Shown: positions 8,727 through 26,520 of the stretch, piece by piece
Position numbering within the stretch: position 1 is the stretch's first letter
Layout: every line of letters starts with the position of its first letter
DNA from: Chitinophagaceae bacterium
GTDB taxonomy: Bacteria > Bacteroidota > Bacteroidia > Chitinophagales > Chitinophagaceae
DNA: 58,248 nucleotides
Direction of reading: 5' to 3'
Assembly: GCA_024643645.1 (NCBI GenBank)
Contig: JAHEMN010000005.1
Location: forward strand, 1 to 58,248
Program-made: the position numbers and the translations under genes
The notes under the pieces: model-generated
The model's database searches: none
Told to the model about the DNA's origin: nothing
What the model saw: the letters and a program-made list of their open reading frames with translations, nothing else

Positions 8727-8966
8727 TGTTGTTCAATTTATGCCTGCAAGGTTATTGGGACATTCCCGCTTAAAGCGAGACTTCAATCCCCGTTTGCCAC
8801 CGACCTTTTCCTTTATGGGGAAGTACCGGCAGTAAACAAACCCTGAATGGCTTGTTTTATGTTTATCGGCCAGAGCTCTTTTTTCGTACCAAGGGCAGAT
8901 TGAGAGTTAGCTAAATTTTTAAATTCAATATATAAGAACTAATGAGGCAGAGCCTCTTTCTTTTTT
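8727..8966 (-). promoter_or_regulatory. candidate structured leader between rpsJ and rplC
   Basis: The 240-base gap contains three hairpins on the transcribed strand: a 5-bp stem at 8944-8956, a 9-bp stem with arms 8834-8842 and 8849-8857, and a 6-bp stem at 8765-8779. The last two each include one G-U pair that exists only on the minus-strand RNA and would be an A-C mismatch on the other strand, which supports folding as part of this transcript. No long ORF or consensus promoter was seen. A ribosomal protein binding leader is one explanation; I recognise no known family. Confidence 0.45.
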
Positions 8967-9272
8967 CTACGCTTTGATTTCCACCTCAACGCCACTAGGC
9001 AGATCTAACTTACTTAGAGCATCCACCGTTCTTGAACTTGACGTGTATATATCCAGCAAACGCTTATGCGTAGCAAGCTGAAACTGCTCACGGCTTTTCT
9101 TGTTAACGTGTGGTGAACGTAATACAGTAAAAATCTTACGGCGGGTAGGTAAAGGAATTGGACCTGTAACTACTGCACCAGTACTACGTACCGTTTTGAC
9201 GATCTTTTCAGCTGATTTATCAACCAGGTTATGATCGTATGACTGTAATTTTATTCTGATTCTTTGCGACAT
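8967..9272 (-). CDS. rpsJ: 30S ribosomal protein S10
   Basis: The 101-residue product begins [20 protein letters not shown] and contains [20 protein letters not shown], the S10 signature. S10 lies in the head of the small subunit and also partners NusB in antitermination. I chose the ATG at 9270-9272: an in-frame upstream start at 9305 would lie inside the operon's -7 promoter element (9303-9310) and so cannot be on the mRNA. This is the first gene of the operon. Confidence 0.97.
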
Positions 9273-16874: not shown

Positions 16875-17174
16875 TTATAACGCAATTACATCAATAACTG
16901 CATCAATATTAATAGGTCCATAAATATGAGGAAAAGTATCAGCTGTTGATTTAGACCAATCAAATACATATTTACTTGTCAGATTATCTGTCTCAATGAC
17001 AAGTTTTACAAGGTTTCCCTTTTCATTAAAGTATCTCTCCAATACACCAGCAACCTGATGTTCCTGAGAGCAATGAATAAAACCCTCTGCTTGTAAAGAA
17101 GGATGGTAATATAAACCCTTTTGTTTAGCTGCTTCCCAATCTTCAAGTGTAGTTACATGATAAATAACCGGCAT
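16875..17174 (-). CDS. DUF952 family protein
   Basis: A 99-residue protein beginning MPVIYHVTTLEDWEAAKQKG, with the family's GFIHCSQEHQV segment near residues 31-41 and a C-terminal FPHIYGPINIDAVIDV. The biochemical function of DUF952 is not established as far as I know; the fold resembles ADP-ribosyltransferase-like proteins in some annotations, which I cannot test here. Its ATG overlaps the aroC stop by one base, so it is probably translated by coupling and is the last gene of the aromatic operon. No clear terminator follows. Confidence 0.85.
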   Translation of the reverse strand: MPVIYHVTTLEDWEAAKQKGLYYHPSLQAEGFIHCSQEHQVAGVLERYFNEKGNLVKLVIETDNLTSKYVFDWSKSTADTFPHIYGPINIDAVIDVIAL

Positions 17175-18166
17175 TATAAAACTTTTTTAATTTGTTGTTC
17201 TAATAACATAAAGTCAGCTATTACAATTGCAGTAGCTGCTTCCACTATTACTGGAGCACGGAGTGCTACACAAAGATCATGTCTTCCTTTTATTGAAAAA
17301 TCTTCTGTAATACCTGTGTCCCAATTCAAGCTATTCTGTTCTTTTGGTGTTGATGAAGTTGGCTTCACAGCAATTCGAAACACAATTTCATTTCCATTAC
17401 TGATACCTCCAACAACTCCACCGGCATGATTTGTTTTAGTTTCACCCTCCATATTCTTAATAGTATCATTATGCTGACTACCAAACATTTTTGCTGCAGC
17501 AAAACCGGTACCGAATTCAACACCTCTTACAGCAGGAATAGAAAACAGTATTTGTGATAATACCGATTCAACTGAATCGAAATAAGGTTCTCCAAGACCT
17601 GCCCGCAATCCATTCACCCGACACTCAATTATTCCACCAACAGAATCTTTTGCGTCAATAGCTTTTTGTAACCCTTTCTCAATATCGCTTTCCCCTCCCA
17701 CTTCAATTACTTCTGCTTTAATAGTTACATCTTTCATCAGCATTTTTGCAATGGCACCAGCGGCTACAATCCCAGCAGTTAATCTTGCACTGAAATGACC
17801 CCCACCCCGATAATCTTCATTGCCTCCGAATTTCTGATGAGCCACCCAATCTGCATGCCCCGGCCTTGGAATACTTCTTTGCTTTGTATAATCTTCGCTA
17901 CGGATATTCTTATTCTCGAATAAAATTGTGATCGGAAAACCGGTTGTTTTTCCATTAAATACACCGCTTTTAAAAATGGGAAAGTCTTCTTCCTGTCTTG
18001 GTGTTGTACCTTTTTGTTTGCCACCTTTTCTTCGCTCCAGATCAGGCAATAGATCTTCCGGTGATAAAACTAAACCTGCCGGACAACCGTCAACAGTAAT
18101 CCCAACACATTCGCCATGTGATTCTCCAAAAATTGAAATACGAAATATGCGGCCGAAACTATTCAT
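17174..18166 (-). CDS. aroC: chorismate synthase
   Basis: The 330-residue enzyme converts 5-enolpyruvylshikimate-3-phosphate to chorismate with reduced FMN. Signatures are the N-terminal GESHGECVG (residues 14-22, with the conserved His17), the RPGHADW segment, the YRGGGHFSAR segment near 120-129, and the GRHDLCVALRAPVIVEA ending. At 330 residues it is shorter than the common 350-390 but has the core motifs. It overlaps aroA by 8 bases and the DUF952 gene by one. Confidence 0.97.
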   Translation of the reverse strand: MNSFGRIFRISIFGESHGECVGITVDGCPAGLVLSPEDLLPDLERRKGGKQKGTTPRQEEDFPIFKSGVFNGKTTGFPITILFENKNIRSEDYTKQRSIPRPGHADWVAHQKFGGNEDYRGGGHFSARLTAGIVAAGAIAKMLMKDVTIKAEVIEVGGESDIEKGLQKAIDAKDSVGGIIECRVNGLRAGLGEPYFDSVESVLSQILFSIPAVRGVEFGTGFAAAKMFGSQHNDTIKNMEGETKTNHAGGVVGGISNGNEIVFRIAVKPTSSTPKEQNSLNWDTGITEDFSIKGRHDLCVALRAPVIVEAATAIVIADFMLLEQQIKKVL

Positions 18167-19457
18167 AAAGTTTGAACTTATTATTTAAAGATACATCAGC
18201 GCCAAGTTTTTCCAAATCATTATAAAAATCAGGATAGGATTTTTTAACTGCTCCCGCCTCATCAATAATCGTTTCTCCTTCCGCTTTTAAAGCTGCCACC
18301 GCACAAGCCATCGCAATTCTGTGATCATGTCTTGAATGTACAGTTGCTCCTTTTACACCTTCGCCACCATGAATTATCATTTCATCATCTTTCAATTCAA
18401 TCCTCACTCCCATTTTACCAAATTCTTCCTGCAATGTAATTGCCCTGTTACTTTCTTTATGAGTTAGCCGGGTAACCCCTTTAATAGTAGATACACCATT
18501 ACAATAAGCAGCTAATGTAACCAATGGAGGGAATAGATCCGGACAATCAGTTGCATCAAAATAAAAAGAGGACATCAGTGCCGGATGGATCTTTATACCT
18601 TTTGCTTCAACAGCAATTGCTGCATTCGCAGCCATCAACGCATCGATAATCTTTTTATCAGCCTGTGTTGACGTTAGATCTAAACCTCTTATAGTAATTG
18701 GCCCCGCAATTGCTCCAGCCACTAATAAAAATGCACCGCCACTCCAATCACCTTCAATAGTGTAATGAACAGATGTGTGAGTTGATTCTAAAACAGGTTC
18801 TGCACTAAAAAAAAATTCCTCATAGTTTTTATTTTCCGGTACTTTAAACCCAAACTTACTCATCACATCCAATGTAAGATCTATATAAGGTTTGCTTTTC
18901 AGGCCTTTCACTTTTATACTTAGATCTTTTGCATCTGCAGCAGCATATGCCAATAATAATCCAGTTAAAAACTGTGAGCTTAATGATCCATCGATTTCAA
19001 TATTTGCCGGAACTAAAGGGCCCTGAATCTCAATTGGCAGTTTACCCTCATTTGTTTTCACTTTTATATTCAAACCGGGTAAAATCTCATCAAAAAAATT
19101 CATAGGCCTGGTCAACAAGCTGCCAGATCCACTAATAGTAATTCTTTTATCACTTAATGCTACAAGTGGTGTAAACATTCTAATCCCTAATCCGCTTTCC
19201 CCACAATTAATTTCTGTTGAACCAGGATTTACTCCTGTACTGTTTATTAAAAGATCATCTCCCCTTTTTTCAATTTTTGCCCCAAGCTTTTGTATTATTT
19301 CTAATGCCGCCAGATCATCATTTGAATGTCCGGGATTATAAATAGACGTTTCACCTGTGTTTAATAAAGCCGCTGCAAGAGCCCTTTGCATGGAACTTTT
19401 TGAAGCAGGAGCTTTAATGCTACCTTTTAATTGAGATGGACGAATAGTAACTTTCAT
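18159..19457 (-). CDS. aroA: 3-phosphoshikimate 1-carboxyvinyltransferase (EPSP synthase)
   Basis: The 432-residue enzyme joins phosphoenolpyruvate and shikimate-3-phosphate. Seen are KGSIKAPASKSSMQRALAAA near residues 10-29, NCGESGLGIRMF, the SSQFLTGLLLA segment, the LTHKESNRA segment and DHRIAMACAVAAL near the C terminus. Length is normal. The start lies one base after the aroB stop, consistent with coupled translation. Confidence 0.97.
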   Translation of the reverse strand: MKVTIRPSQLKGSIKAPASKSSMQRALAAALLNTGETSIYNPGHSNDDLAALEIIQKLGAKIEKRGDDLLINSTGVNPGSTEINCGESGLGIRMFTPLVALSDKRITISGSGSLLTRPMNFFDEILPGLNIKVKTNEGKLPIEIQGPLVPANIEIDGSLSSQFLTGLLLAYAAADAKDLSIKVKGLKSKPYIDLTLDVMSKFGFKVPENKNYEEFFFSAEPVLESTHTSVHYTIEGDWSGGAFLLVAGAIAGPITIRGLDLTSTQADKKIIDALMAANAAIAVEAKGIKIHPALMSSFYFDATDCPDLFPPLVTLAAYCNGVSTIKGVTRLTHKESNRAITLQEEFGKMGVRIELKDDEMIIHGGEGVKGATVHSRHDHRIAMACAVAALKAEGETIIDEAGAVKKSYPDFYNDLEKLGADVSLNNKFKLYE

Positions 19458-19458
19458 T

Positions 19459-20478
19459 TTACAAATCCTGAATGACTTTATCTAATTGTTTTAATGAAAT
19501 TGATTTAACAATTCCTTTTCCGATTTTTTTCAATAAAACATAATTCATATCGCTTTTCTCTCGCTTCTTATCCATCTTTAAAACATTAAAAACTTTTTGC
19601 TTATCGAAAGCTGCATAAGTAGGTAAGTTGTATTTTTCCAATAAACTGATAACTCTTTCTGTTTCTCTGAACCCAACCAAATGCTCTGAGATATGACAGG
19701 CATACGTCATACCAATTGAAATGGCCTGACCATGCGATAATTCATATTGATTTTCTAATGCATGACCCAGTGTATGTCCAAAATTCAACAATCTCCTTTC
19801 GTCTTTTTCAAACTCATCCTTTTGGACCACTTTCATTTTAAGCAAAGCATTTTGTTGTACCAGTTCACAAATTGATATTTTTCTTCCCTGGTATTTTTTC
19901 AATGTGTTGTTTTCGAGAGACTCAAACATTTTTAAATCCTTGATGCAGGCATGCTTGATAATTTCTGCAAATCCATTTTCCCATTCAATTTGAGGCAATG
20001 AATTCAGAAAAACCATATCGTGTAAAATAAAGGACGGCTGCATAATAACACCAACCATATTTTTATAAACTCCTACATCAATTCCATTTTTACCACCGAT
20101 AGAAGCATCTACTAATCCTAAAACTGAAGTTGGTATAAATCCAAATCGCAACCCACGCATATATATGGAAGCTACAAAACCGGTTATGTCTGTTACAACT
20201 CCGCCACCGACACCAACTAATGTTGTTTTACGGTCAACTTGCATTTCAATTAACTGCTCAACAATAGCATCTACTGTAGCTTGTATCTTAAAATCTTCTC
20301 CCGGCTTTAATACTATTGTATCCCAACCCTTAAATCTTTTAGTATGTGCTTTATAGATATTTTCATCAGTGATCAAGACAGCAGACTTTGTATCAGTTAC
20401 CTTTTTTAGATGACTGATACCATGAGCCAGATAAATATCTGTTGAAGAATTAGTGAAATTAAAAGTTTGCTTTTTCAT
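19459..20478 (-). CDS. aroB: 3-dehydroquinate synthase
   Basis: The 339-residue NAD-dependent enzyme performs the second shikimate step. It shows the glycine-rich LVGVGGGVVTDITGFVASIY segment, NGIDVGVYKNMVGVI, and the metal-ligand segment RLLNFGHTLGHALEN followed by LSHGQAISIGM. I chose the ATG at 20478 (MKKQTFNF); another in-frame ATG at 20493 would add five residues and cannot be excluded. It is about 100 bases downstream of the DAHP synthase fusion gene. Confidence 0.95.
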   Translation of the reverse strand: MKKQTFNFTNSSTDIYLAHGISHLKKVTDTKSAVLITDENIYKAHTKRFKGWDTIVLKPGEDFKIQATVDAIVEQLIEMQVDRKTTLVGVGGGVVTDITGFVASIYMRGLRFGFIPTSVLGLVDASIGGKNGIDVGVYKNMVGVIMQPSFILHDMVFLNSLPQIEWENGFAEIIKHACIKDLKMFESLENNTLKKYQGRKISICELVQQNALLKMKVVQKDEFEKDERRLLNFGHTLGHALENQYELSHGQAISIGMTYACHISEHLVGFRETERVISLLEKYNLPTYAAFDKQKVFNVLKMDKKREKSDMNYVLLKKIGKGIVKSISLKQLDKVIQDL

Positions 20479-20591
20479 TATACCACAACCCATAATGGGA
20501 AGATTTTATTTTTTTGCTTTCTGATTTCTTTATATCATATAATATTTTCATTCAAAGAAAAATATTGCACCGTTCACATTTACAATGTCCT

Positions 20592-21677
20592 TTAACTATC
20601 CAAAATCTTCTTTTGATGATTGATACTTTCCATATGTACCGCATCAAAATATTTTGTAATGAACTCTTTGCTCAATCCAATCTTTTCACCTTTTGCACTG
20701 GCCCTTTCGATGATCTCATTCCAGCGATTGGTTTGCAATATGGTAATATTATTTTCCTTTTTGAACTTACCGATCTGTTCAGCAATTTTCATTCGCTGAC
20801 TTAATACCTGCATTAATTCATCATCAAGATGATTGATCTGTTGCCGTAATTTTTCCAATGCAGCATGATACTCTTCAGAATTAACATCTTCTTTTCTCCA
20901 GATGATCATTTCAAGCATTTCATTTAATACCTCCGGAGTTACTTGCTGCTTAGCATCACTCCATGCATTATCAGGATCTATATGACTTTCAATCATCAAA
21001 CCATCATAATCAAGATCTATAGCTTTTTGCATTACTTCCAATAATATATCTCTACGGCCGCAAATATGTGAAGGGTCGTTTATCAATAACATCTCCGGAT
21101 GTTTCAACTTCATATCAATTGCAAGATGCCACATAGGAGCATTTCTATATTCTGTATTTCCGTAAGAACTAAAGCCCCGGTGAATAAGACCAATATCTTT
21201 AACACCTGCCCTTGCAACTCTTTCAACAGCACCACTCCATAATTCAAGATCAGGATTGATAGGATTCTTAATTAAAACAGGAACATCAACACCCCGTAAA
21301 GCATCAGCAATTTCCTGTACACTAAATGGATTTACTGTTGTTCTTGCACCTATCCATAATACATCAACATCAAAAGTTAGTGCATCCTGAACTTGTTTAC
21401 CGGTAGCAACCTCAACAGTTGTAGGCAACCCTGTTAACTTTTTTGCCTGCTGTAACCATGGCAACCCTTTGGCACCAATACCTTCAAACATACCAGGCTT
21501 AGTTCTTGGTTTCCATATACCTGCTCTCAGCATATTTATTTTACCGGTTGCAGCTAAGCGTTGTGCTGTTGCCAATACCTGTTCTTCCGTTTCTGCACTG
21601 CAAGGGCCGCTGATGATTAGCGGACGTTTTTTCCAGACGGATTGTATTGTTTCGTTTGATTGTTCTGTTGCTTGCAT
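20592..21677 (-). CDS. bifunctional DAHP synthase / chorismate mutase
   Basis: The 361-residue protein joins two enzymes of aromatic synthesis. Residues about 1-255 form the beta-type DAHP synthase barrel (ISGPCSAETEEQV, RAGIWKPRTKPGMFEGIGAK, LINDPSHICGRRDIL), the committed step from PEP and erythrose-4-phosphate. Residues about 265-361 are an AroQ-type chorismate mutase (EKLRQQINHLDDELMQVLSQ, RMKIAEQIGKFK). In such fusions prephenate or chorismate binding to the mutase domain often inhibits the synthase; that is family knowledge, not seen here. It lies between tyrA and aroB. Confidence 0.95.
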   Translation of the reverse strand: MQATEQSNETIQSVWKKRPLIISGPCSAETEEQVLATAQRLAATGKINMLRAGIWKPRTKPGMFEGIGAKGLPWLQQAKKLTGLPTTVEVATGKQVQDALTFDVDVLWIGARTTVNPFSVQEIADALRGVDVPVLIKNPINPDLELWSGAVERVARAGVKDIGLIHRGFSSYGNTEYRNAPMWHLAIDMKLKHPEMLLINDPSHICGRRDILLEVMQKAIDLDYDGLMIESHIDPDNAWSDAKQQVTPEVLNEMLEMIIWRKEDVNSEEYHAALEKLRQQINHLDDELMQVLSQRMKIAEQIGKFKKENNITILQTNRWNEIIERASAKGEKIGLSKEFITKYFDAVHMESINHQKKILDS

Positions 21678-21785
21678 TTTACAAATTTAAATTATTAAAC
21701 CATCGATAAAATTCATTATAAATCTTCTTTAACATCTCACTCCTGTCATTATTTGGGATCATGTTCATGAGTAAAATGTATTTTA

Positions 21786-22634
21786 CTATTTTAATATCTT
21801 TCTTATCTTATTCGCTTCTTCAATCAATCTTAACAAATATTCATTATCATTTTTTTCAATACTTTCTTTGAACCTGGTTAACTGAGAAATATGTTCTTTC
21901 AAAACATCCAGCACATTTTCTTTATTCTGCATAAATATCGGCACCCACATGGCCGGATTACTTTTTGCCAATCGAACGGTACTTTCAAAACCGGCAGAAG
22001 CCAATTCGAAAATTGCCTGCTGCTCTTTTTCCTTCTCCAATACTGTATTTGCTAATGCAAATGAAGTAATATGAGAAATATGGCTTACATATGCTGCATG
22101 CAGATCATGTGCCTTCGCCTCCATTTCCAATAAATGCATCCCAATTTTTTTATACATGGCCTTTACCCATTCTAAAGCATCAGCATCACTTTCCTCCGGA
22201 TTACAAATAATTACAGCCTTATTTTCAAAGGCACCTTTTACAGCGGCTTCCGGTCCGCTATACTCAGTACCCCACATAGGATGTGTAGCTACAAATCGGC
22301 CTCTTTTCGGATGTGTTTTGATCGCATTAATTGATTGCAATTTTGTAGAACCCAGATCAATTACAATCTGATCTTTTATTTTATTCAATATTGCCGGTAA
22401 CAATTCAACTACAATATCCACAGGAATTGCTAGAAAAATAATGTCTGATTGATTGATAGCCTCATCCAATGAAACTACTTCATCAACCAATTCAAGTTCT
22501 ACAGCTTTTTTTGCATGAACAGGATTGACATCCACACCAATCAGTTTTGACGATATTTTTTTTTCATGTAACTGAATGGCTAATGATCCCCCGATCAAAC
22601 CAACACCTACAATTGCTATCCGTTTTCTTTCCAT
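21786..22634 (-). CDS. tyrA: prephenate dehydrogenase
   Basis: The 282-residue enzyme makes 4-hydroxyphenylpyruvate for tyrosine. The NAD-binding motif GVGLIGGS is at residues 10-17, and the substrate-site segment THPMWGTEYSGPEAA and the YVSHISHITSFAL helix are typical of TyrA. There is no C-terminal ACT domain. It starts three bases after the aminotransferase stop and is followed by a 108-base gap before the DAHP synthase gene, in which I saw only a weak -7-like sequence at 21682-21689. Confidence 0.94.
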   Translation of the reverse strand: MERKRIAIVGVGLIGGSLAIQLHEKKISSKLIGVDVNPVHAKKAVELELVDEVVSLDEAINQSDIIFLAIPVDIVVELLPAILNKIKDQIVIDLGSTKLQSINAIKTHPKRGRFVATHPMWGTEYSGPEAAVKGAFENKAVIICNPEESDADALEWVKAMYKKIGMHLLEMEAKAHDLHAAYVSHISHITSFALANTVLEKEKEQQAIFELASAGFESTVRLAKSNPAMWVPIFMQNKENVLDVLKEHISQLTRFKESIEKNDNEYLLRLIEEANKIRKILK

Positions 22635-22637
22635 TAA

Positions 22638-23786
22638 TTATTTTTTAATTCGTTGTATCGCTTCTAGTATTCTTTCTTCTGTTGAGCACAAACTGATTCT
22701 AATATACTTTTTGCCTTGATTTCCAAAAATTCCACCGGGAGTAATAAATACATCAGACTCATATAAAACTTCATCACTCAATTGATATGAGTCTTTATAT
22801 CCTTTTGGAATTCCCGCCCATACAAACAAACCTGCCTGATCCTTAGAGAAACTACATCCCAATAGTTCTAACAATTCAAAAACTTTTTCTCTTCTATATC
22901 TATAAACCTTATTTAAAGAATCATACCAATCTTTACCTAATGTCAATGCCTTTGCGGCAGCTAACTGGACCGGTAAAAACATACCACTATCCATATTACT
23001 TTTAAATCGCAATACATCCGCTATTCGTTCTTTTGCTCCACATAAAACACCAACCCTCCAACCAGCCATATTATGACTTTTGCTTAATGAATTCAGCTCA
23101 AGCACATAATCTTTTGCTCCATCAATTTCCAATATACTTTTAGGCTCATTATTAAGAATAAATGAATACGGATTATCATGAACTATAAGAATATCATGCT
23201 TCTTCGCAAATTTTATAAGATCAATAAACAATTCTTTTGAAGGCAGCTTACCTGTTGGCATTTGCGGATAGTTTACAAACATCAGCTTTACTTTCTTAAG
23301 CTTTGTCTTTTCCAAACTCTTAAAATCCGGTTCGTAATTATTTTTTTCATTTAATTTATAGTCGACACAAACTCCACCCGCAAGTTTTACAGCACTACTG
23401 TAAGTAGGGTAACCCGGGTCAGGCACTAAAACTTTGTCACCATTATTCAGGTAGGTCATACAAATATGCATGATACCTTCCTTACTTCCCATCAATGGCA
23501 ATATTTCATTATCAGCATCTAACAATACATTATACGCTTCTTTATACCACTCACTTATTGCTTTTCTCAATATCGGAGATCCTTTATAAGATTGATATGC
23601 ATGAACAGACGGCCTGACACTTTCTTCCTGTAATATTTTTATTACATCCGGATGAGGAGGAAGATCGGGGCTGCCTATTCCAAGATTAATAATATCCTTG
23701 CCTGAATTTCTAAGCTGCTCTATTTCTCTCAATTTATGAGAAAAATAATATTCGCCAATCCCTTTTAATCTTTTACTTGTCTTCAT
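22638..23786 (-). CDS. class I/II pyridoxal-phosphate aminotransferase, probably aromatic
   Basis: The 382-residue protein belongs to fold type I aminotransferases: NYPQMPTGK near residues 172-180, VHDNPYSFI with Asp204, and the PLP lysine in SLSKSHNMAGWRVG (Lys236). By sequence it resembles the AspC/alanine/LL-DAP-like group. Its position between pheA and tyrA strongly suggests it transaminates phenylpyruvate and 4-hydroxyphenylpyruvate, but that is inferred from context. The ATG at 23786 follows a good ribosome site (AAGGA); the longer in-frame start at 23804 is a TTG. Confidence 0.9.
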   Translation of the reverse strand: MKTSKRLKGIGEYYFSHKLREIEQLRNSGKDIINLGIGSPDLPPHPDVIKILQEESVRPSVHAYQSYKGSPILRKAISEWYKEAYNVLLDADNEILPLMGSKEGIMHICMTYLNNGDKVLVPDPGYPTYSSAVKLAGGVCVDYKLNEKNNYEPDFKSLEKTKLKKVKLMFVNYPQMPTGKLPSKELFIDLIKFAKKHDILIVHDNPYSFILNNEPKSILEIDGAKDYVLELNSLSKSHNMAGWRVGVLCGAKERIADVLRFKSNMDSGMFLPVQLAAAKALTLGKDWYDSLNKVYRYRREKVFELLELLGCSFSKDQAGLFVWAGIPKGYKDSYQLSDEVLYESDVFITPGGIFGNQGKKYIRISLCSTEERILEAIQRIKK

Positions 23787-23807
23787 GATTTCCTTATTAA
23801 ACAACTA

Positions 23808-24632
23808 TTATTTCCATATCCCTTTTTTATATACACCATAAATTCTAAGCTCTGTTGTTAGTTTTTTTATTTGATCAATCACTTTATAAAACTGCTCTAT
23901 TGAATTAAATTCCATATCCGCATGAAAACTATATTTGAATTCACTCCCGGGAATTGGAAAACTTTGTAGTTTACTTAAATTGATATCAGAATCTGCAATT
24001 TTTGTCAATACTTTAGCGAGGCTTCCCTTTGAATGGTCTGTATGAAAATTTAATGAAGCCTTATTTGAATTTTCAATAGCATCCACATCATCATTTCTCT
24101 GTAAGATCAAAAACCTTGTATAATTATTCTTTAAAGTATGAATATCTGCTGCAATAATTTTCAGATCATATAAGTCAGCTGCCAGTTTACTGGCAATAGC
24201 TGCCAAATGTTTGCTTTTGTATTGATGAATATGTTTTGCACTTAAAGCTGTATCATCTGTTTCTACCAGTTTCCATTTATATTTATCTAAATAATCATAA
24301 CATTGTTGCAATGCCATTGAATGGGAATGAACTTCTTTGATATCTTCCAGTTCTACATCATGATTTACTAATAAGTTTTGTTTGATGTGCAGATAAACTT
24401 CTCCGGTTATTTTCAGATCACTTTTTTTAAGCAGATTATAATTAGGTAAAATACTTCCAGCAATTGAATTCTCTATTGCCATTACTCCGGCATCAGTTTC
24501 TTTTTCATCAGTAACAGAACTTATTACTTCTTTAAAAGTATTGCATGGTACAACCGAAACATCTTTACCAAAGAACAATTCTGTGGCAACCTGATGGAAT
24601 GACCCCTCATATCCTTGTATTGCTATATTCAT
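23808..24632 (-). CDS. pheA: prephenate dehydratase
   Basis: The 274-residue enzyme converts prephenate to phenylpyruvate. The catalytic TRF motif is at residues 172-174 (NNYTRFLIL) and the ENSIAGSILPNYNLL segment near 54-68 is typical. Residues about 191-270 form an ACT domain that in relatives binds phenylalanine; the usual ESRP motif is here LQSFP, so feedback binding may differ. It is the first structural gene of the aromatic operon and is preceded by the Phe/Tyr-rich leader ORF and a strong hairpin. Confidence 0.95.
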   Translation of the reverse strand: MNIAIQGYEGSFHQVATELFFGKDVSVVPCNTFKEVISSVTDEKETDAGVMAIENSIAGSILPNYNLLKKSDLKITGEVYLHIKQNLLVNHDVELEDIKEVHSHSMALQQCYDYLDKYKWKLVETDDTALSAKHIHQYKSKHLAAIASKLAADLYDLKIIAADIHTLKNNYTRFLILQRNDDVDAIENSNKASLNFHTDHSKGSLAKVLTKIADSDINLSKLQSFPIPGSEFKYSFHADMEFNSIEQFYKVIDQIKKLTTELRIYGVYKKGIWK

Positions 24633-24647
24633 ATTTGTTATTATAAC

Positions 24648-24678
24648 AGAAATCCCGGCCAGTTTGGCCGGGATTTCT
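24648..24678 (-). terminator. GC-rich hairpin in pheA leader, putative attenuator
   Basis: A perfect 14-bp stem with arms 24665-24678 and 24648-24661 (AGAAATCCCGGCCA) and a 3-base loop. On the minus strand the stem ends ATTTCT and continues GTTATAATAAC, so the T-tract is short and partly inside the stem. It ends 15 bases before the pheA ATG. It could act as transcription attenuator, translation block, or end for the upstream helicase transcript. An upstream segment, GCCGGG at 24729-24724, is complementary to CCCGGC in its first arm (24672-24667). Confidence 0.8.
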
Positions 24679-24698
24679 TATGTTGATTTTTAGTTGTA

Positions 24699-24788
24699 TT
24701 AATTTGTTTTCAACAAAAGCATGCCCGGCTTCTTTTGATAAAAGAAGTAAGTAAAATAAAAACTAAAATATAACCTGGTTGCTTTCAT
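24699..24788 (-). CDS. Phe/Tyr-rich leader peptide of the aromatic operon
   Basis: A 29-codon ORF from ATG at 24788-24786 to TAA at 24701-24699. Residues 7-17 read YFSFYFTYFFY: five Phe and four Tyr in eleven codons. Within it an 8-bp stem forms (24747-24740 with 24736-24729, CTTCTTTT / AAAAGAAG), covering the last aromatic codons, and the codons just after carry GCCGGG, which can pair with the terminator arm downstream. A consensus promoter lies directly upstream and the terminator-like hairpin begins 20 bases downstream. The layout matches amino acid attenuation leaders such as pheL, though those are best known in Proteobacteria. AT-rich DNA favours Phe and Tyr codons, so conservation must be checked. 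Confidence 0.75.
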   Translation of the reverse strand: MKATRLYFSFYFTYFFYQKKPGMLLLKTN

Positions 24789-24795
24789 TAGATTC

Positions 24796-24826
24796 CAAAT
24801 ATAACTTTCTTGTTTTGCATTTCAAA
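24796..24826 (-). promoter_or_regulatory. promoter of the aromatic operon
   Basis: TTTG (24826-24823), a 19-base spacer and TATATTTG (24803-24796) on the minus strand match both halves of the Bacteroidota promoter exactly. It starts 12 bases after the helicase stop. Transcription should begin near 24792, only a few bases before the leader ORF's ATG, so the leader peptide would be translated from an almost leaderless end. Confidence 0.85.
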
Positions 24827-24837
24827 CCTTTTCGGAT

Positions 24838-26520
24838 TTATTTTCTTCGGCCACCGCCAGAATCTGCATCATTCATTCTTATTTTTCGTCCCCTGTAGTT
24901 CTTTCCATCAATAGCACTGATCATTTTTTTGCCTGCTGCAGGTTCAATTTCAATCCAGCTTGTCATTTCCTTCATATCGATTTTTCCTAAAACTTCTTTT
25001 TTCAGATCACTCATATCCAGGATAAACTGCAAAAAGCTTGCTTTATAAAATCCATCTTTAGTTCCAAGGTTTACAAACAAACGCTGATAACCACTGCCAC
25101 CACTAAATTTCCTGCCTTTTGTATCTCTGTCTCTTTCTCTAGAAGATGGTTGTCTGTCACTCCTTTCATTTCTTCTATCACTTTTTCTTTCTTCTCTGAT
25201 ATTCAAATCAGGAGCATTTTCATAATATTTCAGGAATCGGTCAAATTCAAGTGCGGCAACTCTCTGCAAGATCTCTTCCTTATCCACTTCAGCAAACTTT
25301 TCCTTCAAAGTAGGTAAATAAGCTTCGTATTCCCCATGACTGATATCCGCATTTAACATCTTATCAATAAAATGGAAAAATTGCTTTCGGCAAACATCCT
25401 TACCGGTAGGAATATCCATTCTATGCGCCTTAGTATTTATTATTCGTTCTATTTGACGAAGACGGTAAGTTTCTTTTGGCGTAACGATAGAAACTGATAC
25501 CCCACTTTTTCCTGCTCTGCCCGTACGACCACTTCTATGCGTATAAACTTCAACATCATCAGGTAATTCATAATTGATAACATGGGTAATTCCAGTAACA
25601 TCAATTCCCCTAGCTGCAACATCGGTCGCAATCAATAATTGAATGCTTTTATCCCGGAAAAGACCCATTACTTTATCTCTTTGCTGTTGTGTCAGATCAC
25701 CATGTATAGCATCAATATCATAACCTTCTCTTGTAAGTCTTTCAGCAATATCCTGTGTATCAGCTTTTGTTCTGGCAAATACAATTCCATAGATCCCCGG
25801 ATTGAAATCAATGATCCTTTTTAATACTTCATACCTGTTATGGTGTTGAGTAGCATAATATTGGTGGTCAATTGTAGCAGCACTGGCATTAGTCTTGCCA
25901 ATAGTGATCTCAAATGGCTTATCCATGTACTTCTTACTTACCTGACGAATTCCGGTAGGCATAGTAGCGCTGAACAACCATATACTTTGCCGATTCGGAG
26001 TGTTTTTAAGAATAAACTCAATATCCTCTTTAAATCCCATATTCAACATTTCATCAGCTTCATCTAAAACAACATAATGAATCTGCTCAAGATTAATCGC
26101 TTTTCTTTCAATCAGATCAATCAATCGTCCGGGTGTTGCTACTACTATATGAGTACCTCTTCTTAAATCTCTTATCTGCATTGATATAGATGTACCACCA
26201 TATACTGCAGTAACAGAAATATTCTCTTTTTTGCCTTTAAAAGTTGATAGATCGTTAGTTATTTGCAAACACAATTCCCTGGTAGGGCACACTATTAATG
26301 CCTGAGGGAAACGATCTCCTTTATTTATTAATTGAAGAAGAGGCAAGCCAAAAGCTGCTGTTTTGCCTGTTCCGGTCTGTGCCAGACCTATAAAATCTTT
26401 GGTTCCCTGTAATAGCACAGGTATTGCTTTTTCCTGGATGGGAGTTGGTTCTATAAAGCCTAACTCCTTAATGGATTGAAGTAAACTTTCTTCAATTCCT
26501 AATGATTCAAATGTGGACAC
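24838..26520 (-). CDS. DEAD-box RNA helicase, DeaD/CsdA-like
   Basis: The 560-residue protein has helicase domain 1 with the Q motif PTPIQ, Walker A AQTGTGKT (residues 47-54), DEAD (153-156) and SAT (184-186), and domain 2 ending in HRSGRTGRAG. After a charged Arg-rich linker near residues 440-470 comes a DbpA-type RNA-binding domain (about 475-550) and a GGGRRK tail. It probably remodels rRNA or structured mRNA. Translation starts at a GTG (26520-26518). It is transcribed toward the aromatic operon but has its own promoter. Confidence 0.95.
   Translation of the reverse strand: MSTFESLGIEESLLQSIKELGFIEPTPIQEKAIPVLLQGTKDFIGLAQTGTGKTAAFGLPLLQLINKGDRFPQALIVCPTRELCLQITNDLSTFKGKKENISVTAVYGGTSISMQIRDLRRGTHIVVATPGRLIDLIERKAINLEQIHYVVLDEADEMLNMGFKEDIEFILKNTPNRQSIWLFSATMPTGIRQVSKKYMDKPFEITIGKTNASAATIDHQYYATQHHNRYEVLKRIIDFNPGIYGIVFARTKADTQDIAERLTREGYDIDAIHGDLTQQQRDKVMGLFRDKSIQLLIATDVAARGIDVTGITHVINYELPDDVEVYTHRSGRTGRAGKSGVSVSIVTPKETYRLRQIERIINTKAHRMDIPTGKDVCRKQFFHFIDKMLNADISHGEYEAYLPTLKEKFAEVDKEEILQRVAALEFDRFLKYYENAPDLNIREERKSDRRNERSDRQPSSRERDRDTKGRKFSGGSGYQRLFVNLGTKDGFYKASFLQFILDMSDLKKEVLGKIDMKEMTSWIEIEPAAGKKMISAIDGKNYRGRKIRMNDADSGGGRRK

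Follow-up and report, generated by a model that had tools for sequence, protein, structure and literature searches.

One of the closest described counterparts of the locus presented here is the pheL attenuator of Escherichia coli, in which a short Phe-rich leader is likewise followed by an antiterminator/terminator pair and then by pheA. The pheL peptide codes for Phe and contains no Tyr. In other E. coli leaders, those of thrL and ilvGMEDA, a single leader carries codons for more than one end product. In Corynebacterium glutamicum, the AroR leader carries Phe-Tyr-Phe and responds to Phe, not to Tyr (Neshat et al. 2014, as described in PMC11802643). Naville and Gautheret (2010; PMC2965389) were aware of no leader-peptide system demonstrated, prior to their study, in bacteria other than Proteobacteria and Actinobacteria, with the exception of ermC. 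A structured 5' element of pheA without an Rfam hit has been reported in Flavobacterium psychrophilum, and in other genera of Flavobacteriaceae as well, and the same paper describes hints that amino acid operons are attenuated through leader peptides (PMC9723704). Further, the long 5' UTRs of Bacteroides thetaiotaomicron contain leader-like short ORFs (PMC7366714). Leader peptides produced from leaderless mRNAs are represented by leuL, trpL and ilvL of Streptomyces lividans (PMC8079986) and by the poly-Cys leaderless ORFs of mycobacteria (cited in PMC13236596). Among the titles, abstract openings and passages that full-text literature searches brought up, none describes a Phe/Tyr leader in Bacteroidota.

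The locus lies on contig JAHEMN010000005.1 of the Chitinophagaceae bacterium assembly GCA_024643645.1. The window, by which the whole stretch of 58,248 nucleotides analysed is meant, carries the feature on its minus strand (Table 1). A preliminary description had listed a promoter, a 29-codon ORF with an aromatic run, an 8-bp hairpin, a GCCGGG segment, a 14-bp hairpin and pheA; all of these were found where it had placed them, the GCCGGG segment at 24729-24724 and the pheA ATG at 24632. Along the minus strand, TATATTTG is followed after 7 nt by the leader ORF, which is separated by 20 nt from the 14-bp hairpin and by 66 bp, counted from its stop codon, from pheA. The intergenic gaps of the operon range from -8 to 108 bp, including gaps of 108 and 98 bp, and a scan of the window sequence revealed no exact match to the Bacteroidota promoter within the operon. 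The eight-gene run is presumably co-transcribed, in which case the genes beyond pheA would also be controlled by the leader. At the 3' end of the operon, the DUF952 gene (PF06108, 16875-17174) overlaps the end of aroC.

Table 1. Features of the leader region and the downstream aromatic amino acid operon, in window coordinates
Feature	Position	Strand	Remarks
Promoter TTTG-N19-TATATTTG	24796..24826	-	Bacteroidota primary-sigma type by sequence; predicted start 24791
Leader peptide ORF MKATRLYFSFYFTYFFYQKKPGMLLLKTN*	24699..24788	-	29 codons; conserved ahead of pheA
Control codons, residues 7-17	24738..24770	-	Nine Phe/Tyr (5 Phe, 4 Tyr)
8-bp hairpin CTTCTTTT-ATC-AAAAGAAG	24729..24747	-	Over the last aromatic codons; candidate pause hairpin
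Antiterminator 5' arm GCCGGG..CTT.TGTTGA	24710..24729	-	Inside the leader ORF, codons K-P-G-M-L-L-L-K
Antiterminator 3' arm TCAACA.AAG..CCCGGC	24667..24686	-	Shares 12 nt with the terminator 5' arm
Intrinsic-terminator hairpin	24648..24678	-	14 bp, 3-nt loop, -24.5 kcal/mol, short U-tract
pheA, prephenate dehydratase (PF00800)	23808..24632	-	Pfam; first gene of the operon
Aminotransferase, tyrA (PF02153), DAHP synthase-chorismate mutase, aroB, aroA, aroC, DUF952	16875..23804	-	Pfam

One way to account for this arrangement without any regulation is to regard the hairpin as the mere terminator of a DEAD-box helicase gene, which lies on the same strand and has its end at 24838, upstream of the hairpin, and the ORF as a chance product of AT-rich DNA, the window having a GC content of 35%. 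The base composition had also been raised in the preliminary description as a source of Phe and Tyr codons, a concern that the shuffles dispel. When the 205-bp intergenic region was dinucleotide-shuffled 20,000 times, nine aromatic residues of 11 never arose, and eight arose once. Among the 887 ORFs of 15-60 codons that the two strands of the window contain, the leader ORF is the sole one with more than seven Phe/Tyr in 11 residues. The 162-nt leader folds with a z of -5.1, and 0 of 200 shuffles folded equally well. As for the hairpin, a promoter and an ORF sit between it and the helicase gene, and the same arrangement precedes pheA in most of the class loci examined. At another locus with the leader (L047, discussed below), the upstream gene is not a helicase by its translation; it is presumably pdxA. 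The conservation of the arrangement ahead of pheA already refutes the helicase-terminator reading, and hardly any credence is left for the combined account.

Conservation was assessed with a leader rule that calls for an in-frame ORF with at least seven Phe/Tyr/Trp in 11 residues, located within 480 nt upstream of pheA. Four draws of genomes or loci, which overlap, were used. The first comprised 58 relatives, 24 of which had a match, the window among them, and the second consisted of 24 named loci. The third covered 147 genomes of Chitinophagaceae, 106 with pheA, which yielded 107 loci. The fourth extended to 296 genomes of the phylum, 258 of them with pheA; here, 81 loci were taken from the better-scoring matches listed, and nine more were added. 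The 81 phylum loci fall into nine from the family, five from the order (counting L021), 38 from other orders of the class and 29 from other classes, the last being a subset of a longer listing. In the other orders of the class, 55 genomes have pheA; 47 were covered and eight (f23, f29, distant PheA) were left out.

Whether the aromatic codons and the hairpin are kept in relatives had been set beforehand as a refuting test of the attenuation model. Both are kept: the rule-based ORF scan detected a leader at 101 of the 107 family loci, and 183 of 194 leaders, compared with 4 of 194 shuffled sequences, have a terminator behind them, defined by a hairpin of -8 kcal/mol or better with at least 5 U of 12. 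The controls for the leader rule gave 3 of 225 on the antisense strand and 20 of 1450 in Markov shuffles. Two of the misses (L038, L022) have little sequence upstream of pheA, another (L177) is the second pheA copy of its genome, and L152, L168 and L193 carry weaker leaders with 6 of 11 residues aromatic. A leader was also present at 23 of the 24 named loci and in 16 of 23 further relatives, namely 14 of 15 from the same genus and 2 of 8 from other families of the order. Culturable relatives that carry it are Chitinophaga filiformis DSM 527 (L043) and Lacibacter (L030, L032). The distribution in these other families is patchy, with leaders at 5 of 12 loci (3 of 4 in the phylum draw, 2 of 8 in the relatives draw). 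In the other orders of the class, leaders precede pheA at 43 of 47 loci among the matches listed (35 of 38 plus 8 of 9), and the four loci without one (L183, L196, L247, L203) all belong to family f27. At L183 and L196, the DNA upstream of pheA resembles the end of a coding gene abutting pheA.

Outside the class, the leader is found at 5 of 29 loci among the matches listed. The PheA proteins at these five loci (L085, L091, L182, L191, L205) are unusually window-like, with scores of 208-368 bits, and L204, with a PheA of 201 bits, has no leader. As the presence of the leader coincides with window-like PheA in other classes, the leader tracks that PheA lineage. This suggests that leader and operon move together.

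The T-tract of the terminator in the window had been flagged as short, and it indeed has 6 U in 12 nt, the count starting 3 nt ahead of the stem end; U-tracts are longer in many relatives. The hairpin matched the strict terminator pattern on the plus strand only. The preliminary description had further proposed that GCCGGG is complementary to the first arm of the terminator. The pairing exists, but the real duplex is longer, comprising 15 bp instead of 6: positions 24729-24710 pair with 24686-24667 at -22.6 kcal/mol (z -5.4). The codons that follow the aromatic run, which read PGMLLLK in Chitinophagaceae, thereby double as the 5' arm of the antiterminator. Of the 187 of 194 leaders used for antiterminator counts, 155 have a duplex with z < -2, and in 183 it shares at least 5 nt with the terminator arm.

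Covariation was examined in an alignment of 41 of 53 reference leaders, Chitinophagaceae only. The antiterminator is paired in 88.9% of the cells of this alignment, compared with 27-53% for slid versions, although its short middle helix is paired in 67.8%. Double changes occur at 6 of the 15 pairs, a value as high being reached in 0 of 500 shuffles; the signal is weak when further pair types are counted, a measure by which 36 of 500 were as high. In other lineages, different sequences make the same antiterminator pairing. Arms were also swapped between dissimilar leaders among the 172 distinct peptides whose terminator scores -8 kcal/mol or better, the set that also underlies the composition, promoter and model counts given below. 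Swapping weakened the pairing, the median being -21.9 with the own arm versus -16.1 with swapped arms. The own arm beat 95% of swaps in 83 of the 172 leaders and 90% in 115.

These results bear on the proposal that the ORF encodes a hydrophobic microprotein with a function of its own, or acts in translational coupling or reinitiation, and has no role in attenuation. The ORF has 29 codons and is conserved in sequence, and reinitiation after leader ORFs has been proposed, with a peak in Bacteroidetes at 11-14 bp from the gene (PMC4833913). The leader stop of the window, however, is not within 11-14 bp of pheA. Further, apart from the aromatic codons it is the pairing of the RNA with the terminator that is kept, and the C-terminal peptide varies by lineage (PGMLLLK, SSRVVFAK, RSEDCAMVI) while this pairing persists. 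A microprotein or coupling role in place of attenuation is thus considered very improbable. The attenuation model first put forward for this DNA has, by contrast, gained the support of a conserved leader, a conserved terminator and a covarying antiterminator.

Less can be said for the 8-bp hairpin. Its outer four pairs are present in 91.5% of cells and its inner four in 59.8%, which amounts to 75.6% overall, and slid controls are nearly as good at 46-70%; the hairpin is only partly conserved. It had been cast together with the antiterminator as a pair of competing structures (1:2 and 2:3); because the two share one base only, they are probably not alternatives. A candidate anti-antiterminator helix between the ORF start (AAAGCA) and UGCUUU received no support from the comparison.

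The position of the promoter relative to the ORF is another conserved property. The motif TAnnTTTG has been placed at -12 to -5, and in F. psychrophilum the median 5' UTR is 24 nt and 5.5% of mRNAs are leaderless (PMC9723704). Of the 172 leaders, 118 have an exact -7 box at a distance of up to 40 nt from an in-frame AUG, and 54 have no exact box. On the basis of predicted starts, the implied 5' UTR is 0-4 nt in 93 of these 118, with a median of 3 nt; that of the window is 3 nt. The distance from the -7 box to the leader ATG is conserved in relatives, and the leader mRNA is accordingly predicted to be leaderless, or nearly so. Genome comparison has in this way brought out the ORF, the aromatic codons, the terminator, the antiterminator and the promoter spacing, along with their conservation.

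In Chitinophaga and its kin (L041-L045, L049, L167, L170), two leaders and two terminators occur in series before pheA. Tandem leaders are also seen in family f28, at L088 and L089, the first hairpin of L089 being detected in one terminator search only. A Trp codon is conserved in the first leader of the Chitinophaga pair. Its second leader occurs in four distinct versions (L041, L044, L045, L170), all of which lack the exact promoter box, so they are probably on one transcript with the first leader. Locus L104 is also picked up twice by the leader rule; the hairpin after its first ORF reaches no more than -7.0, and this ORF is probably due to chance.

Collectively, the element is with high confidence taken to be a ribosome-mediated transcription attenuator through which the charging state of tRNA-Phe, and probably that of tRNA-Tyr too, controls the operon that makes the two amino acids. 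Translation of the leader, stalling of the ribosome and termination would then be linked as follows. The RNA would start about 3 nt before the leader AUG, and a ribosome would load on the near-leaderless 5' end, which would hold it close behind the polymerase. When both Phe- and Tyr-tRNA are charged, the ribosome would pass the aromatic codons and cover the PGMLLLK codons, masking the antiterminator arm. With this arm masked as the terminator arm emerges, the terminator would fold and the polymerase would halt before pheA. When either tRNA is scarce, the ribosome would wait at codons 7-16 and leave the antiterminator arm free; the free arm would pair first, capture the terminator arm and allow transcription into the operon.

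A nascent-RNA model, in which the ribosome masks RNA to 14 nt beyond the start of the A-site codon and capture is scored at P > 0.5, is consistent with this scheme. For the window, the model gives a probability of terminator-arm capture of 0.59-0.61 for stalls up to codon 16, 0.39 at codon 17, 0.14-0.15 at codons 18-19 and 0.01 from codon 20 onwards. Over the 172 leaders, capture exceeds 0.5 in 99.4% when the ribosome is at the first aromatic codon, in 100% at the middle one, in 84% at the last and in 0 at the stop codon, although this 0 of 172 is largely geometry and a shuffled linker still gives capture in 40%. When the full-length window leader is folded to equilibrium, the terminator prevails wherever the ribosome is stalled, which means that the antiterminator has to act kinetically. 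Without a ribosome, the model predicts antitermination in 90% of leaders, unlike classical trpL. The model can be read as describing a kinetic two-state switch, simpler than trpL, in which translation itself would be the off signal.

The composition of the leaders addresses which amino acids are sensed. The preliminary description had considered that one leader sensing both end products would be unusual. Mixed leaders turn out to be the rule in this group, and AroR of C. glutamicum offers a mixed precedent. Phe and Tyr occur together in 171 of the 172 distinct leaders, and the core holds two or more Tyr codons in 169, up to 7; core medians are 5 Phe and 3.5 Tyr codons. The 1823 core residues of these leaders include 922 F, 595 Y, 39 W and no Leu. 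As the core was selected for F/Y/W, the informative point is the identity of the remaining residues.

Tyr sensing by the leader is suggested by this codon conservation, but the leader might instead be a Phe-only attenuator in which Tyr codons are tolerated neighbours. The latter is a genuine possibility, though it is rated below an even chance. AroR sets a precedent for it, as its Phe-Tyr-Phe leader answers Phe and not Tyr (PMC11802643), and the excess of Phe over Tyr in the cores as well as the persistence of Tyr codons in genomes without a window-like TyrA (see below) point in the same direction. However, drift from Phe should yield Leu, Ile, Val and Cys, and these were seen 0, 2, 1 and 9 times in the 1823 residues. 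Nearly every leader also has at least two core Tyr codons. Further, Tyr/(Phe+Tyr) over whole leaders is alike whether computed for the family (0.37, n=98) or for the remaining families of its class (0.39, n=37).

A further argument against Phe-only sensing is that the sole Tyr-free leader coincides with the loss of the neighbouring tyrA. This leader, MLKSLFSFGFSFFRFFQSGPGEVCA (L047, contig JAISGX010000018.1), precedes a pheA whose next gene is that for DAHP synthase-chorismate mutase, with neither the aminotransferase gene nor tyrA in between. The aminotransferase gene comes directly after pheA in 98 of the 103 loci with enough flank, and the exceptions are L047 and L023-L026, the latter without a leader. 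No TyrA above the cut-off was found in the L047 assembly (15.7 versus 26.5 bits), whereas 14 of 14 control genomes were positive; an aromatic hydroxylase was searched for in the same assembly and not found. It should be noted that L047 is one case and that its contig ends about 0.6 kb after the DAHP synthase gene. The record is labelled Verrucomicrobiota, and 5 of 17 genomes of its family have a match, the other four being 28-35% identical. Given the label and these dissimilar family matches, the contig of L047 and L246 may be transferred or mis-binned.

The genomes that retain Tyr codons without a window-like TyrA count against Tyr sensing. A window-like TyrA was not found (E up to 1e-3) in the near-complete genomes G278, G296, G318, G333, G408 and G454 of family f22 and in G255, all of which have pheA and the leader; the leaders read (L184, L186, L190, L198, L243-L245) keep Tyr. 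PF02153 scores 23-29 bits in these genomes, above the 26.5 cut-off in three, with ORFs mostly of 420-470 aa. An aromatic-hydroxylase-like protein of about 600 aa is present in all seven, as it is in the TyrA-bearing G204, G325 and G364. A route from Phe to Tyr in the f22 genomes and G255 is therefore possible. G131 (L122) likewise keeps its Tyr codons with no TyrA found; its pheA lies 973 bases from the contig end, so tyrA may simply be absent from the assembly.

The widest formulation of these observations is that, over most of the class, the Phe/Tyr pathway stands under one leader that reads both tRNAs on a near-leaderless mRNA, with an ORF-borne antiterminator arm, a two-state design and occasional doubling, and that the sensed set follows the pathway, Tyr codons being lost when tyrA leaves. 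Taken with all its parts, this proposition is as open to doubt as to belief.

A related leader may exist for histidine. A frame with at least four His occurs upstream of hisG in 7 of 7 hisG-bearing genomes among 28 searched (L229-L235), the H-rich frame of L229 being less clear than that of L230. The latter belongs to the genome of the window itself (G000:C216, hisG 8738-9202), where MNNYTHNHHHFLLHQSRP and a hairpin precede hisG. This His-rich peptide with its hairpin makes it probable that leader attenuation covers histidine too.

If the proposed mechanism is true, it would be a main control of how a large class of environmental bacteria makes Phe and Tyr. It would also allow the logic 'Phe or Tyr short' to be put to a sharp test in a mixed leader; AroR, the one mixed Phe/Tyr leader met in the literature covered, responds to Phe alone. 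The near-leaderless start raises the question of whether attenuators in bacteria that do not depend on Shine-Dalgarno sequences use leaderless starts to hold ribosome and polymerase in step. On a practical level, the aromatic operon can readily be annotated by the conserved codons of its leader, and Rfam could be extended by a Bacteroidota Phe/Tyr leader family. The Rfam model RF01859 (Phe_leader) matches the window over its full length with 35 bits and E 0.001, leaving the gathering threshold of 55 unreached. Membership of RF01859 was considered and rejected: of 20 relatives, four (L112, L114, L134, L192) gave sub-threshold matches of 34-41 bits and the others none (E up to 0.05). The matches at L112 and L192:137-268 (-) score 39-41 bits against the same threshold. 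A T-box riboswitch was likewise dismissed, none being among the 17 Rfam matches (E up to 5) in 24000-25400.

Measured against E. coli pheL, the present element belongs to a different phylum and has Tyr codons two thirds as frequent as Phe codons, a predicted 5' UTR of about 3 nt, an ORF that spans the antiterminator arm and an operon that makes both Phe and Tyr. The thrL and ilvGMEDA leaders concern other amino acids and contain no Phe/Tyr pair. AroR is similar in combining Phe and Tyr codons with ribosome-mediated attenuation ahead of a DAHP synthase operon. It differs in preceding aroF instead of pheA and in occurring in Actinobacteria, whereas the type in the window is conserved over much of its class. 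The leaderless leaders of Actinobacteria come from another phylum, with another promoter type and other amino acids, and the start in the window is predicted from the promoter. The pheA element of F. psychrophilum is very likely the same element as that of the window; the portion of its description compared here gives no leader sequence, codons, antiterminator or range past Flavobacteriaceae. Thus, the element is very probably an attenuator of a known kind, and what is new is that it is mixed for Phe and Tyr, is predicted to be near-leaderless, carries an antiterminator arm inside its ORF, extends over most of the class and is sometimes doubled.
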